From Chloracidobacterium thermophilum B (GTDB lineage: Bacteria > Acidobacteriota > Blastocatellia > Chloracidobacteriales > Chloracidobacteriaceae), in contig NC_016024.1 of NCBI RefSeq assembly GCF_000226295.1, positions 2,339,501 through 2,403,500 on the forward strand: a stretch of 64,000 nt of DNA, in the 5' to 3' direction. Both the position numbers and the translations under genes were made by a program. The notes under the pieces are model-generated. The model was given only the letters and a program-made list of their open reading frames with translations. It made no database searches and had not been told where the DNA came from. Below are positions 37,638-46,377 of this stretch, piece after piece (within the stretch, counting starts at the first letter, position 1; each line of letters opens with the position of its first letter).

Positions 37638-38729
37638 TCACGCCACACGGTGCGGCTCCGGCGGGTGAGATGCCGTGTGACCATTGCGTGCATCGGCTGT
37701 CCGGGTGGATTGCTCCAGGTGGACTTCGTGGGCAGCCGGCAGGTTAAAGGCCAGATCAAAGATGTGTGCGCCAAACTCCTGCACAATTCCCTCACAAACC
37801 CTGATGGCCCGGATGCTGTTGCCGCGTTCATCAAGACGCGGTGAGAACACGCCAATCCCAAATCGCCCCGGAACGACAGCCAACAGCCCGCCACCAACTC
37901 CACTTTTGGCCGGCAGTCCCACGCGATAGGCCCATTCGCCGGCATAGTCATACAAACCGCAGGTGAACATGACGCTGAGAATGTCCCGGACATACTCGGC
38001 AGCAATGGCACGTTCGCCCGTCAGCGGATTGACGCCCCGGTTGGCGAGTGTCGCGCCCATCACGGCCAGATCACGGCAGGAGACCATCAACGAACACTGC
38101 TGAAAGTATAAATCCAGGGCCTCGTCCACGTTGCCGTCAATCATACCGAAGTTGAGCATCAGGTGCGCAATGGCGCGATTGCGGTGGCCGGTCGTCCGCT
38201 CGGACATAAACACCGACATGTCGGCAAAGATGCTGTGGCCCGTGTAGCGTTGAAACAGGTCAAGCAGGCGGTTGAGCTTGTCGGTCGGGTCAGTTCCCTT
38301 GATGATGCTCGTCATGGCAATAGCACCGGCATTGACGAGCGGATTGTGCGGACGCTTGGAACGCTCATCGAGCTTGATGATGGAGTTGAAGGCATCGCCC
38401 GTCGGCTCGACGCCCACCCGCGTCCGAACATAGTCGCGGCCGTGGTCTTCGAGCGCCAGCCCATAGACAAAGGGCTTTGAGATGGACTGGATGGTGAACA
38501 GGTAGTCGTAGTCTCCCACCTCAAAGATTTGCCCATCCACGGTGGCAATGCAGATGCCGAACAGGTCCGGTGGCACCTTGGCCAACTGTGGAATGTAGTC
38601 GGCTACCCGGCCGTCCTGAAGGGACTTGTATTTCAGGTGCAGGTCATTGAGAACGGAAAGGATACGCAGCCGTTCAGCACTCTGGCGAACGGATATGGCT
38701 TCGGCTGAAACGTTGGCTTGAAAGCTCAT
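37638..38729 (-). CDS. glsA: Glutaminase
   Basis: Hydrolyses glutamine to glutamate and ammonia through a serine-lysine beta-lactamase-like fold. It has 363 residues; typical bacterial GlsA have about 310, and the extra length is a C-terminal tail of about 40 residues. Motifs: [16 protein letters not shown] (catalytic Ser-x-x-Lys), [32 protein letters not shown], and later the block [21 protein letters not shown] split by [14 protein letters not shown]. The gene precedes glnA on the same strand, so enzymes of opposite direction are neighbours. It borders the repeat island on its upstream side. Confidence 0.94.
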
Positions 38730-38961
38730 CAGAAAACTCCGCCGGTGAACAAGACCACAACCCCCAGACCGGTTTCAACCTATGGAGCAAAGACTCATCC
38801 GGTTCACCCTCTGCCGTGTCGGCAGCGGTGGGATTCAGCCCGGCTCCGTCCTTCACCCAAGCCCAATCTGACGCATAATTCCAGTGCCGTGGGAAGCGTA
38901 TCCCATCCCGCCCCCCGGCGCATAGCGACGCCGGGAATTGTCGCGTAGTGACGGACCGCCT

Positions 38962-38988
38962 GGGAGCGCGGGCATCCTGCCCGCATGG
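38962..38988. repeat. Repeat family C: GGGAGCGCGGGCATCCTGCC type
   Basis: One copy upstream of the duplication, able to fold through GCGGGC and GCCCGC. Variants in the reverse orientation with GTCCCACCC in the middle occur at about 39346-39376 and 39770-39800. The same motif appears twice 7 kb away in the leader of mnmG (46061-46116). Confidence 0.85.
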
Positions 38989-39008
38989 GGGTATGGGGCG
39001 ACCGTGAT

Positions 39009-39690
39009 CCGTGGGTTGAAACCCATCGTGGGTGAACCCACGATCCCGTGGGTTGAAACCCACGGATCATGTCGCCCACCAATCGTCCCCGTCGCGTCAG
39101 CGACGGCTGAACCCCACCGTGGATGTCCCGATTCGTGGTGTATCCGTACGATGGCGCCCGCATTCCCCTGCGGGCGGGAAATTGTGTCGTTCCGGCGATA
39201 TTCATCCGTCGCTACGCGACGGGGTGTGGGGGGTGTCGCGCTCCGTGGGTTGAAACCCACGGCTAAATTCATCCGTCGCTACGCGACGATGCATAAGGTG
39301 CAAACCTACAATGGGTTTCAACCCACGGTCGCTTGCCCCCACACACACCCGTGCGGGTGGGACGCCCGCGCTCCCAGGCCTGTCGCGCCAGCCGTGAGAC
39401 AGAAACCCGTGGACGTGGGCGTTGGTCGTGGGTTGCAACCGCATGTTTGCCGCGTAGCGGCAACAGAATTTTGCCGTGGGTTTCAACCCACGGATCATGT
39501 CGCCCACCAATCGTCCCCGTCGCGTCAGCGACGACTGAACCCCACCGTGGATGTCCCGATTCGTGGTGTATCCGTACGATGGCGCCCGCATTCCCATGCG
39601 GGCGGGAAATTGTGTCGTTCCGGCGATATTCATCCGTCGCTACGCGACGGGGTGTGGGGGGTGTCGCGCTCCGTGGGTTGAAACCCACGG
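39009..39690. repeat. Palindrome family A: CCGTGGGTT-NN-AACCCACGG
   Basis: Inverted repeats with 9-bp arms and a 2-bp centre. Full copies lie at 39046-39065, 39243-39262, 39474-39493 and 39671-39690; shorter or imperfect ones at 39009-39025, 39027-39042 and 39312-39325. The centre is GA in most copies and TC in 39474-39493, as expected if units sit in both orientations. They resemble REP-type intergenic palindromes in design. Confidence 0.88.
39046..39381. repeat. Long duplicated segment, copy 1
   Basis: About 336 bp that recurs 428 bp downstream with only scattered substitutions (for example GACGGCTGA against GACGACTGA, CCCCTGCGG against CCCATGCGG) and a short deletion near the end. It begins with the palindrome CCGTGGGTTGAAACCCACGG and contains two further palindrome types. 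No transposase is encoded, so a non-autonomous element or recombination between repeats may explain it. Confidence 0.9.
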
Positions 39691-39716
39691 CTAAATTCAT
39701 CCGTCGCTACGCGACG
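39090..39716. repeat. Palindrome family B: CGTCGC-N3/4-GCGACG
   Basis: Copies with centre TAC at 39206-39222, 39273-39288, 39634-39650 and 39701-39716, preceded by the conserved ATTCATC; related copies with centre GTCA at 39090-39105 and in the second duplicate. They alternate with family A, so the island is a mosaic of two palindromes and short linkers. Confidence 0.85.
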
Positions 39717-39805
39717 ATGCATAAGGTTCAAACCTGCAATGGTTTTCAACCTACGGTCGCTTGCTCACACACCCGTGCGGGTGGGACGCCCGCGCTCCCA
39801 AGCCT
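39474..39805. repeat. Long duplicated segment, copy 2
   Basis: Second copy of the duplication, nearly identical to 39046-39381 at a constant offset of 428 bp up to about 39765. Its first palindrome has the central dinucleotide TC instead of GA, and its last copy of that palindrome is degenerate (39740-39755). The spacer between copies (39382-39473) also carries partial palindromes, including GCCGCGTAGCGGC. Confidence 0.9.
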
Positions 39806-40119
39806 TTCCCTCCGGGAGGCCAAACGGCTTGCCCCACATCCCGCCTTCGCCTATCGTCGCAGGTGGTCGTCGTCCGTTCTATGCCGTACGTGCTGGGCGC
39901 CAGTGTTTGGGCCGATGCCGTTTGAACGGGAAGCTGCGGCCTTCACTTTGGGGCAAGACGCCATGGGCGTCGTGCGATGAAGTGCAGCCAGGCTACCCAC
40001 CTGTCCATGCAGGTTCAAACGACGCGCCACGACGGCGGTGGTGGTTGGCGACGACCTCCTTTGGCATCTCCCTCGTCAGGCGTGGGGGCCAGCCGACTTC
40101 CCCACCGGGTTTCCCAAGT

Positions 40120-40893
40120 ATGCTCCTCGTGATTGACGTTGGTAATACCAACACGACGCTGGGCGTTTATGCCGGCGAAACGTTGATTGCCCACTGGCGG
40201 CTGACGACCGAACGTGAACGCACCACAGACGAGTACGGCATTTTGTGCCGCAACCTGTTTACCATTTCCCAACTCGATCCGCGCGACATCACCGGCATTG
40301 CCATTGCCTCGGTCGTGCCGCCGCTGAACTTCACCTTTTTCCGCATGGCCCAGACGTACTTCGGGCGCGAGCCATTTTTCGTGCGCCCGACGGAAAACGT
40401 CGGCATGCCCATCCGGTACGACGTGCCGCAGGATGTCGGCGCAGACCGCATCGTGAATGCCGTGGCCGCTTATGCGCGCCACGGCGGACCCTGTGTCGTT
40501 GTGGACTTCGGTACGGCGACGACGTTCGATGCCATTTCTGAAGACGGAACCTATCTGGGCGGCGTCATTGCGCCGGGCATCGTCATCTCGGCCGAAGCCC
40601 TCTTTCAGCGGGCAGCCCGCCTGCCCCGGGTGAGCATCGCCCACCCGGCTCAAGTTATTGGCGCCTCCACCATCGGCAGTATCCAGTCGGGACTGTACTT
40701 CGGCTATATCGGACTCGTGGAAGGGATTTTGCAGCGCATGCAGGCGGAAATGGGCAGTTTGCGGGCCGTCATTGCCACGGGTGGACTGGCACGGCTGATT
40801 GGCAAGGGTTCGCCGCTCATCACCGAAATTGATGAAAATCTGACGCTTGAAGGGCTGCGCCTGATTTACCAGCGCAACGCCCGGACGGCTTAG
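40120..40893 (+). CDS. coaX: Type III pantothenate kinase
   Basis: First step of coenzyme A synthesis: phosphorylates pantothenate with ATP. ATG 40120 gives 257 residues beginning MLLVIDVGNTNTTLGVYAG, the phosphate-1 motif typical of CoaX; the frame is open further upstream but only through non-homologous sequence. Other motifs: DVPQDVGADRIVNAVAAYAR, VVDFGTATTFDAI and GGVIAPGIVISAEALF, plus VIATGGLARLI near the end. It belongs to the acetate/sugar kinase/Hsp70/actin superfamily and is insensitive to CoA feedback in known cases. The adjacent downstream gene starts 33 bp later. Confidence 0.95.
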   Translation: MLLVIDVGNTNTTLGVYAGETLIAHWRLTTERERTTDEYGILCRNLFTISQLDPRDITGIAIASVVPPLNFTFFRMAQTYFGREPFFVRPTENVGMPIRYDVPQDVGADRIVNAVAAYARHGGPCVVVDFGTATTFDAISEDGTYLGGVIAPGIVISAEALFQRAARLPRVSIAHPAQVIGASTIGSIQSGLYFGYIGLVEGILQRMQAEMGSLRAVIATGGLARLIGKGSPLITEIDENLTLEGLRLIYQRNARTA

Positions 40894-44163: not shown

Positions 44164-46053
44164 TCAAGCCGTTTGGGCAACCCGTTTTCCATTCCCAAGG
44201 TGCAGGCTGAGAATGGCCAGCGCCGCCGGTGTCACACCCGGAATCCGCGCGGCCTGTCCCAGGGTTGCCGGACGGATGCGCGCAAACTTGTCAGCCATTT
44301 CACGCGACAGTCCCGGCAGCCGCGTGAAGTCGAGGTTTGCCGGAATGGCCACATCGGCGGCTTTGGACAGCTTCCGGGCCGTGGCCTCGTGGTGACGAAC
44401 GTAGCCAGCGTACTTGAGGTCATTGACGGCAACTTCCAGTTCGGACTCGTCAAAGTCCGTCACTCCGGCCCGACGCAGGGCGGCCGCCAGATGTTCCGCC
44501 GTAACTTCCGGGCGCCGCGCCAAAGCTGACAAGCGCTGCTTTTCCCGCAGAACAATCCCGGTCTCGGCGGCAAGGGCGTCGGCTTCCCAGGAGTCCGGGC
44601 GGATGGAACAGGCTTCAAGCAGCGTGTGGCAGGTCTGGATGCGTGCCTGCCGCTGCTGGAAACGCTGGTAGTCGTCTTCACTGACCAGGCCGATGGCGTG
44701 GCCGAGTGGCGTCAGGCGCTGGTCGCTGTTGTCAATCCGCAGCAGAAGCCGCACTTCGGAGCGGGAAGTAAACATCCGGTAGGGTTCATCCACGCCTTGG
44801 GTTGTCAGGTCGTCCACGAGGACGCCAATGTAGCTGCTGGCGCGGTCGAGCACCACTGGCGGGAGACCCTTGGCCAGACGGGCAGCATTGATGCCGGCAA
44901 CCAGTCCCTGGCAGCCGGCTTCCTCATAACCCGTCGTGCCGTTGATCTGCCCGGCATGGAACAGTCCCCGGATGCGCTTGGTTTCCAAAGTCGGCTTGAG
45001 TTCCGTGGGGTCGACCATGTCGTATTCGATGGCATAGCCCGGACGGATGAGTTGCGCCTGTTCGAGACCGGGAATCGTGCGCACGAGGCGTTCCTGCACC
45101 TCAATCGGGAGGCTCGTCGAAATCCCGTTGACATACACCTCGTGGGTTTCAAAGCCTTCGGGTTCGAGAAACACCTGGTGGCGCGGTTTGTCGGGAAACT
45201 TCACAACCTTGTCCTCAATGGACGGACAGTAGCGGGGCCCGATGGACTGAATCTGCCCGCTGTACATGGGCGACTTGTCCAGGTTCTCACGAATCACCCG
45301 GTGGGTTTCTTCATTGGTATAGGTGATGTAGCAGGACAGTTGGCGGCGAGTGATGGCTTTTGTCCCAAAGGAAAAGGGTGTGGGGTTGGGGTCGCCCGGT
45401 TGCTCCTCACACTTTGACCAGTCAATGGTTTTGGCATGGACGCGCGGCGGCGTGCCGGTTTTGAGCCGTCCCACGCGAAATCCGAGGCGGCGAAAGCTTT
45501 CGGCAAGCAGCAGGGAAGGCAGTTCTCCGGCGCGGCCGGCCTGGTAGGTGCGCGTACCGATGTGAATGAGGCCGTTGAGGAATGTCCCGGTACAGATCAC
45601 CACGGCTGACGCGCCGAGCCGCCGGCCGTCCCACATCTCGACGCCGACGATGCGTTCCTGTTCGACCATCAAATCAATGACCTCGCCCTGCCGCAGGTGG
45701 AGGTTTTCGATGGTTTCGAGAAAGCGCCGCATTTCGGTTCGGTACAGCGCACGGTCGGCCTGCGCGCGTGGCGACTGCACCGCCGGCCCACGGCTTCGGT
45801 TGAGCATCCGAAACTGGATTCCCGTCCGGTCAATGATCCTGCCCATCAGCCCGCCCAAGGCGTCCATTTCGCGTACCAGGTGCCCCTTGGCAATGCCGCC
45901 AATGGCAGGGTTGCAGGACATCTGGGCAATGAGGTCGAGGTTGAGCGTGATGAGCGCCGTCTGGCAGCCGAGCTTGGCAGCGGCGTGGGCAGCCTCGCAT
46001 CCGGCGTGTCCGGCGCCAATAACAATGACATCAAAAACTTCGTTGAACGGCAT
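44164..46053 (-). CDS. mnmG: tRNA uridine-34 5-carboxymethylaminomethyl modification enzyme
   Basis: FAD enzyme that with MnmE modifies the wobble uridine of several tRNAs. ATG 46053 gives 629 residues starting [22 protein letters not shown]; the frame is open to 46242, but that extension translates repeat family C and is rejected. Signatures: [21 protein letters not shown] (split over the FAD domain), [35 protein letters not shown], and [20 protein letters not shown]. The C-terminal helical domain for MnmE and tRNA binding is complete ([18 protein letters not shown]). It is convergent with the TgpA-like gene. Confidence 0.96.
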
Positions 46054-46060
46054 ACCCTCT

Positions 46061-46116
46061 GGGAGCGCGGGCATCCTGCCCGTGGAACAACCTGGGAGCG
46101 CGGGCATCCTGCCCGC
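46061..46116. repeat. Two copies of repeat family C in the mnmG leader
   Basis: Direct copies of GGGAGCGCGGGCATCCTGCC at 46061-46083 and 46094-46116, 33 bp apart, identical over about 22 bp. They lie between the predicted promoter and the mnmG start, so they would be transcribed. Each can form a small hairpin through GCGGGC and GCCCGC. The first ends only 7 bp from the start codon and may cover the ribosome site. Confidence 0.88.
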
Positions 46117-46143
46117 ATGGAAACCCGTCTGAAAACAAAGGGG

Positions 46144-46173
46144 AGTGTACCGAGGGGCCAACCGGACTGACAA
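46144..46173 (-). promoter_or_regulatory. Predicted promoter of mnmG
   Basis: On the minus strand TTGTCA (46168-46173) and TACACT (46144-46149) are separated by 18 bp, matching the consensus at 5 and 4 positions. Predicted start of transcription near 46137, giving a leader of about 85 nt that contains both family C repeats. Confidence 0.5.
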
Positions 46174-46377
46174 CCACGCCCGGCGCGTCTCACGCCTCTC
46201 CGGGGGCCAGTTGCCGTCGCTGGAGGGTGCGCAGCACGGCATCAGTCCACAGAAGCGTCGGCGACCTTTCAGCTATCCTGAAAGTGCTGACCTGTAAACA
46301 ACTGCCGTGAACGCCTGGCACGGCAGGACTGAAAACATCCTGGCCATTTCCCCGCGTTCCCGGCAGGCGAGGCGCAT

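Follow-up and report, generated by a model that had tools for sequence, protein, structure and literature searches.

A palindrome island of Chloracidobacterium thermophilum B and a probable DNA-repeat partner of subclass-1.2 Y1 transposases

An intergenic island of palindromes in the genome of Chloracidobacterium thermophilum B is, in our judgment, a BIME-like mosaic whose core unit is quite probably the cognate DNA repeat of subclass-1.2 Y1 (IS200-like) transposases. That unit is the Rfam family Acido-Lenti-1 (RF01687), which is probably transposase-associated DNA, its filing as an RNA gene being in that case a misreading of DNA hairpins. With less assurance, we lean toward a broader reading: subclass 1.2, recorded as lacking a REP-like partner, would have one in this two-hairpin element, which occurs in many phyla and has stood in Rfam as RNA since 2010, and the branch would represent an independent origin of the partnership between REPs and transposases, from IS200-like rather than class 2 enzymes. 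If this holds true, an Rfam family used in genome annotation would have to be struck or re-filed, and subclass-1.2 transposases would gain a candidate substrate whose biochemistry is testable with defined oligonucleotides. It would also offer a second case for how transposases and hairpin repeats become mutually dependent.

The island and its core unit

The window is the whole 64,000-nucleotide stretch that was analyzed, G000:C1:2339501-2403500, in a searched genome (G000) of 3,695,372 bases in two contigs, the first of 2,683,362 bases. The alternation of palindrome families that the earlier note had described within it is real: palindrome A (CCGTGGGTTGAAACCCACGG) is exact at 39046, 39243 and 39671, with reverse or half copies at 39009, 39314 and 39479, and palindrome B (CGTCGCTACGCGACG) lies at 39207, 39274, 39635 and 39702. 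Two further inverted-repeat families had been overlooked, D (GTCGCGTCAGCGAC at 39091 and 39519) and, at the island margins, C (GGGAGCGCGGGC...GCCCGCGCTCCC). The near-identical block at a 428-bp offset was likewise borne out (Table 1), and the duplication runs on at offset 424 after a 4-nt indel (39342-39389 versus 39766-39813, 92%).

Table 1. The island, its parts and its flanking genes, in window coordinates
Feature	Position	Strand	Remarks
Glutaminase gene	37638-38729	-	Pfam; flanks the island
Mosaic palindrome island	38917-39810	.	intergenic: glutaminase (-) / type III pantothenate kinase (+)
C palindrome GGGAGCGCGGGCATCCTGCCCGC, left margin	38962-38984	+	16-mer core: 52 genome copies, reversed control 0
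Duplicated block, first copy	39046-39345	+	96% to second copy over 300 nt, offset 428
D palindrome CCGTCGCGTCAGCGACGG, first copy	39089-39106	.
Acido-Lenti-1 unit 1: hairpin A, CTAAATTCA linker, hairpin B	39243-39288	+	RF01687 45.1 bits (gathering 37); R1 model E 1.6e-15
C palindrome (GGGACGCCCGCGCTCCC)	39359-39375	-
Acido-Lenti-1-like unit, inverted orientation	39449-39493	-	under Rfam cut-off; R1 model E 3.2e-13
Duplicated block, second copy	39474-39773	+	96% to first copy; also in sister species
D palindrome, second copy	39517-39534	.
Acido-Lenti-1 unit 2, inside second duplication copy	39671-39716	+	RF01687 45.1 bits; R1 model E 1.6e-15
C palindrome, right margin, inverted versus left one	39783-39799	-	inverted pair, 82%
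Type III pantothenate kinase gene	about 40120-40893	+	Pfam, Pan_kinase; flanks the island

Palindrome A, the linker CTAAATTCA and palindrome B together make up Acido-Lenti-1. When membership is judged by a covariance-model score over the gathering cut-off of 37 bits, cmscan finds two matches in the window; each lies in the island and consists exactly of palindrome A, CTAAATTCAT and palindrome B. Across the genome there are 46 RF01687 matches, 38 of them over the cut-off, on both strands and all on contig 1, in ten islands of which the intergenic one in the window is one; the 14 control genomes gave no match (0/14). The genome-wide count and mapping that the earlier note had proposed returned 38 copies of the exact A 18-mer CGTGGGTTKMAACCCACG in 3.7 Mb, against none for its reversed control, so the palindromes are neither confined to this site nor at chance frequency elsewhere. 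Exact 16-mer copies of the C palindrome lie at island margins and elsewhere, the islands combine A, B, D and C palindromes, and certain of them are tandem arrays of 173, 205, 182 or 117 bp. These are short palindromes in many copies, clustered and alternating in orientation, as REP/BIME sequences are. Our own 33-element covariance model matches, within the 64-kb window, the island alone.

Islands of this type are also a hazard to annotation. They give rise to spurious ORFs, and ARAGORN places inside the window island a tRNA-Trp (39304-39398, minus) that is almost surely false. Several frames had been reported as free of stop codons, and one is indeed open for 247 codons while four of the six have a run of at least 129. 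Composition explains this, however, since stops are no fewer than in dinucleotide shuffles (37 in total versus a mean of 33.7, P 0.79; four long runs, P 0.115). Elsewhere in the window, two C palindromes of the GGGAGCGCGGGCATCCTGCCCGC type (46061-46117) lie in frame upstream of what we take, from the sequence of ORF 44164-46242, to be MnmG, and extend its open frame (RMPALPG stretch).

Transposase genes and the unit beside them

Three Y1_Tnp matches occur in the genome: L024, L025 and an intact gene at C1:2474050-2474502 (about 151-158 aa), 95 kb from the window island. The earlier note had correctly found no RAYT-like gene in the window. The REP-associated tyrosine transposase that it suggested looking for has a relative in the intact gene, which lies immediately upstream of another island—a C palindrome and Acido-Lenti-1 units follow directly after its stop, on that side only—but which is of subclass 1.2 rather than a classical RAYT. 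The enzyme family is settled by sequence profiles: Pfam assigns Y1_Tnp (5.7e-31), NCBIfam IS200/IS605, and the family profile matches ISHp608 TnpA in PDB (1.6e-16). The TnpA-Y1 subclass 1.2 signature (DH[IV]H, WQ, Y---Q--HH, about 148 aa) is present as DHVH, WQ and Y...Q..HH, and H56, H58, Y116, Q120, H123 and H124 do not vary across 19 relatives (alignment rows). The Y..NP motif of RAYT/TnpA-REP class 2 enzymes is missing, and the genome has one such gene rather than the near-identical multi-copy tnpA, often with tnpB, of IS200/IS605 subclass 1.1.

L024, a distant second match of IS605 type, with an ORF alongside that was labeled TnpB-like by inspection, was rejected as a partner of the palindromes, none of those searched being present at its locus. 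L025 (G000:C1:1423735-1423965), a partial Y1_Tnp match with a class 2-like YIGNNP, sits in frame within a 1203-aa methylase-like frame and is surrounded by C palindromes; the same match is present in the sister species (G004), and it is possibly an in-frame transposase insertion. A 361-aa ORF (L247:7545-8630) with HVH and YILTNP motifs, repeated ATPRGCPDEMN-like inserts and no match in Pfam or PADLOC may represent a class 2 Y1 gene into which repeats have inserted in frame.

Gene and repeat are physically linked. Of 30 transposase loci, 9 have an Rfam match within 1.5 kb, or 10 if one weak match (E 0.09) is counted, against 0.48 expected from density; most of the matches lie about 50-70 nt outside the gene, on the minus strand before it and the plus strand after it. 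Loci at which Rfam is silent display the same architecture with other stem sequences. A structure-only detector—hairpin, CTA, hairpin, with no stem sequence specified—was positive at 15 of 21 loci (9 on both sides), a set drawn from the 30 by leaving out contig-end, partial and distant loci while counting both of the near-identical L026 and L027. It was positive at 43 of 80 GTDB loci (25 on both sides), these being the best 80 of 583 confirmed stretches rather than a random sample, and at 2 of 1200 shuffled flanks. Outward density within 250 nt is 3.05 per kb for the 21 loci and 2.05 for the best 80 of 583, falling to 0.106 and 0.035 beyond 600 nt. When all 64 triplets were scanned as the linker, CTA scored 100 of 284 flanks, the overlapping GCT 69 and the median triplet 8.

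Other Y1 genes of the same genomes serve as a control. In related genomes the detector was positive at 21 of 62 genes of subclass 1.2 and at 0 of 28 others. L195, L220 and L231, which by eye looked like degenerate relatives of subclass 1.2, were kept out of both groups (two of the three positive); counted among the others, they make the latter figure 2 of 31. These numbers derive from 105 listed loci, some listed twice, of which 93 (62, 28 and 3) were left once 13 named duplicates and L027 had been removed. In the last 20 loci, chosen for repeats or several transposases, the detector was positive within 400 nt in 12.

A covariance model extends the picture; it was built from the 33 elements kept when a set of 46 with fixed geometry was thinned by eye. 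Among the best 80 of 583 GTDB loci it finds the unit within 250 nt at 54 (E up to 1e-5) and outward at 49; at 33 the matches point outward on both sides, forming an inverted pair around the gene, and the median distance is 69 nt. Most of the model's sequences were drawn from these same 80 loci, so the far-flank contrast weighs more than the raw count: 96 outward matches in 39,059 nt of near flank versus 8 in 260,689 nt of far flank. Rfam's own model is independent and, in 20 hand-picked loci, brackets subclass-1.2 genes above the cut-off at L089, L090, L094, L107, L288 and L289, whose records are labeled Deltaproteobacteria, Zixiibacteriota and Verrucomicrobia, plus an acidobacterium; at the Lentisphaera-labeled L102 the bracketing is under the cut-off. 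GTDB record titles are depositors' labels, one of which reads Klebsiella. Cognate Y1 genes flanked by their repeat are what define a REPtron, and here the repeat flanks the gene of C. thermophilum B on one side and a subclass-1.2 gene on both sides, outward, in many phyla.

Gene and repeat also co-occur. Within the genus, two of seven members have the repeat (46 matches in G000, 49 in G004) and the same two have the gene, the other five having neither, a pattern that is probably one event. In 39 relatives the gene is present in 21 of 22 repeat-positive and 7 of 17 repeat-negative genomes (p 2.6e-4, without tree correction); in an overlapping set of 149 genomes of the phylum, 21 have both, 9 the repeat only, 9 the gene only and 110 neither (p 5.6e-12, again uncorrected for the tree). 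Gene presence in the 149-genome set means a subclass-1.2 match at E 1e-20, and on that threshold 9 of 30 RF01687-positive genomes without the gene, and 9 of 30 gene-positive genomes without RF01687, count against the preferred reading.

Dispersal and island history

The earlier note's suggestion of REP-type sequences mobilized in trans survives in part: REP-like palindromes are dispersed, a Y1 gene lies upstream of another island, and the five other congeners have neither. Evidence against movement comes from island sites that are all common to the sister species and from target duplications in two genomes. The latter underpin the strongest competing account, an improbable one in our estimate, in which ordinary DDE-type MITEs with terminal inverted repeats carry the unit while Y1 genes hitchhike or serve as landing sites. 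One A hairpin, found beside transposase genes of G034 and G037 at loci where Rfam has no match, occurs in 36 copies in G034, 15 in G037, 12 in G022 (though the nearest gene found there is 49% identical to that of C. thermophilum B), 1 in G016 and 0 in 35 others; its reversed control gave 0. Its copies are often inverted pairs about 120-140 bp apart. In five of six pairs measured in G034 the units are 233-237 bp, with sharp ends at GTAACTGCTCA...TGAGCAGTTAC (terminal inverted repeats), and the flanking 8-mers of the six match, by eye, at 8/8, 7/8, 7/8, 5/8, 4/8 and about 1/8, the 5/8 unit being 305 bp. Eight units in G149 have TGTCTG...CAGACA-type ends and a split B-type hairpin, GTCCCNNNGGGAC; seven of the eight duplicate CCNNNGG (7 bp). 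The G149 loci L268-L286 are MITE-like units carrying the Acido-Lenti-1 unit, palindrome-targeted into GTCCCNNNGGGAC with the 7-bp duplication.

Y1 enzymes (IS200/IS605) are not known to leave target duplications, so those in G034 and G149, 7-8 bp long, point to dispersal of these copies, at least most recently, by another transposase of cut-and-paste type. As a general account, however, MITE carriage meets two difficulties. No such terminal repeats are present at the transposase loci checked in G034, G149 and G037 (L029, L030, L163, L164; L288-L291), and the unit brackets one Y1 subclass specifically, across phyla whose outer sequences are quite unlike. In G149 the A-B sequence at L289 is that of a dispersed subfamily and the one at L288 differs, resembling REPtrons, in which each gene has its own repeat according to PMC6006769.

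Under the preferred reading of a transposase-linked DNA repeat, recognition of the unit by the subclass-1.2 enzyme would have seeded islands in the ancestor of the two sister species, and later change within them would have been local, with palindromes recombining to give the tandem arrays and the 428-bp copy, rather than fresh transposition. The sister species has all the island sites, with no new insertion seen since the split. Arrays have nonetheless turned over: ten islands in G000 correspond to nine in G004, with differing array content, and two G000 islands about 9 kb apart are one in G004. At the window island's place the congener G001 has 235 bp without palindromes, versus 1118 bp in G000, and G004 has the second block copy, with a plain Acido-Lenti-1 unit and other sequence where the first would be. 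The copying that had been suggested to be recent is not so relative to speciation. The two copies differ at 9/296 positions from each other and at 8/300 and 11/296 from the single sister copy; the distances being alike, the duplication and the separation of the two species are of about the same age. On these sequence comparisons, the simplest account is that recombination or gene conversion between palindromes would have produced the 428-bp copy roughly when the species diverged; G004 may instead have lost the first copy.

A further difference between the sister species is L247 (G000:C1:232700-242200), about 9 kb between Acido-Lenti-1 arrays that is missing from G004, as if the arrays had acted as recombination points. 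The region encodes a PLD and SNF2 helicase protein and an Eco57I-type methylase, and is defense-like.

Stem evolution, reading strand and related systems

The unit consists of a 20-nt hairpin A, CTA, 9-10 nt and an approximately 13-nt hairpin B; in its fixed geometry, an 8-bp stem with a T-first tetraloop and a 5-bp stem with a triloop stand on either side of the CTA and the 9-10 nt. In the 46 fixed-geometry elements, for which CTA was a detector requirement and a pre-filter demanded perfect pairing in B stems and at least 6/8 in A stems, position 9 (the first loop base) is T in 46/46, C2-G19 and G33-C45 are constant, and C28 is C in 41/46. The stems evolve in a compensatory manner: pairing holds in 99.1% of cells, both partners vary in 11 of 13 pairs, and the covariation score is 0.725 versus 0.139 for shuffles and at most 0.089 for slid controls. 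A score of 0.709 versus 0.146 was obtained for 138 model-aligned matches.

Such covariation, together with the Rfam entry and a "y" for RNA in a table within the available part of PMC2864571, is what a genuine structured non-coding RNA would lead one to expect, with islands as RNA-gene clusters or 3' hairpins and transposase proximity reflecting control of the transposase by RNA. We consider this doubtful, and less probable than MITE carriage. On the Rfam strand G-T is no commoner than A-C: 6 of 1778 cells versus 20 at the GTDB loci and 5 of 714 versus 9 in the C. thermophilum B and sister genomes, both among matches to a G-U-tolerant model, or 10 versus 18 when collapsed by stem context. A stronger use of this ratio as proof of strand was dropped, the raw 14 A-C to 2 G-T coming mostly from one related family; the claim is that there is no G-U excess. 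Since stem changes compensate while G-T stays no commoner than A-C, the hairpins are under selection, but not visibly as RNA on the Rfam strand. An RNA also sits poorly with the inverted copies that flank the gene on either side, with occurrence on both strands of the genome, and with a region that has a single weak promoter-like site and none resembling a terminator. A reading of the palindromes as terminators was rejected, the island having no T-run terminator. Least likely is that the unit has nothing to do with mobility and is kept by selection as a functional hairpin in its own right (a site for gyrase or the nucleoid, or an mRNA 3' stabilizer), for which one may cite islands kept at the same sites in two species and the roles of this type proposed for REPs of other bacteria, but which must contend with zero copies in five of seven congeners, an intergenic site that is simply shorter in G001, and array content that differs between the sister species.

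On the strand opposite to Rfam's the unit runs B', spacer, NTAG, A', giving hairpin A a REP-like foot, which is TTAG in C. thermophilum B and GTAG (CTAC on the Rfam strand) in 25 of 85 elements elsewhere. We propose that the subclass-1.2 transposase binds the unit as single-stranded DNA and would recognize the 5' NTAG foot together with hairpin A, much as GTAG and a hairpin are read by REP enzymes. A classical GTAG-REP was rejected for this genome, whose TTAG differs from the unpaired 5' GT[AG]G foot, as was a CGTC-tagged REP (unpaired CGTC tag at one end, CCA tail), the CGTC of palindrome B being paired inside its stem.

Known systems resemble this one to differing degrees. With REP/BIME/REPIN sequences and their REPtrons (RAYT, TnpA-REP class 2) it shares short GC-rich palindromes, alternating clusters, Y1 genes bracketed by their own repeat family and dispersed inverted pairs, yet its unit has two hairpins, its foot is NTAG and its enzyme carries Y...Q..HH rather than Y..NP. 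RF01687 agrees in sequence and structure above the gathering score; here it is taken to be repeat DNA linked with one subclass of transposase, with a taxonomy wider than Acidobacteria and Lentisphaerae. In the available part of PMC6006769, a 2018 survey, subclass 1.2 has the same motifs at about 150 aa, and is described as low-copy, mainly in Cyanobacteria and Bacteroidetes, generally without typical terminal secondary structures, and with "no" under REP. Hairpins do accompany it here: by title, 53 of 66 loci other than Bacteroidetes have a near match, versus 1 of 14 labeled Bacteroidetes (best 80 of 583), and this scarcity in Bacteroidetes may be the reason for the published "no."

Two other groups come close. 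TIRtrons (TIRYT), in the portion of PMC3733652 at hand, are likewise Acidobacteria Y1 genes flanked by inverted repeats, some multi-copy, whose TIRs share the motif GGGGWSAS; we set them apart by enzyme subclass rather than TIR sequence, 20 of 26 TIRYT enzymes being in subclass 2.1 in the accessible part of PMC6006769, unlike the subclass 1.2 here. Class 3 TnpA-Y1, again as partially available in PMC6006769, occurs in Planctomycetes and Acidobacteria with atypical hairpins in high copy, but has a YV[VI]..EQ Y motif and an NHVH HuH motif that the C. thermophilum B gene lacks.

A link between Acido-Lenti-1 and a transposase was not found in the available passages of PMC2864571, PMC13298647 and PMC10059132, nor in searches of the openly accessible literature on RAYT, REPIN, IS200 and Rfam misannotation of REPs; a term search of the main text of PMC12306157, as available, returned no RAYT, transposase or Rfam. 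For Tannerella, the available part of PMC13298647 (2026) takes Acido-Lenti-1 "ncRNAs" near protease genes as possible regulators and reports no mobile-element sign. The genes concerned, miropsin and karilysin, adjoin Acido-Lenti-1 in that same part, and a transposase-associated repeat offers an alternative to the regulator reading; the unit itself may be the mobile-element sign.
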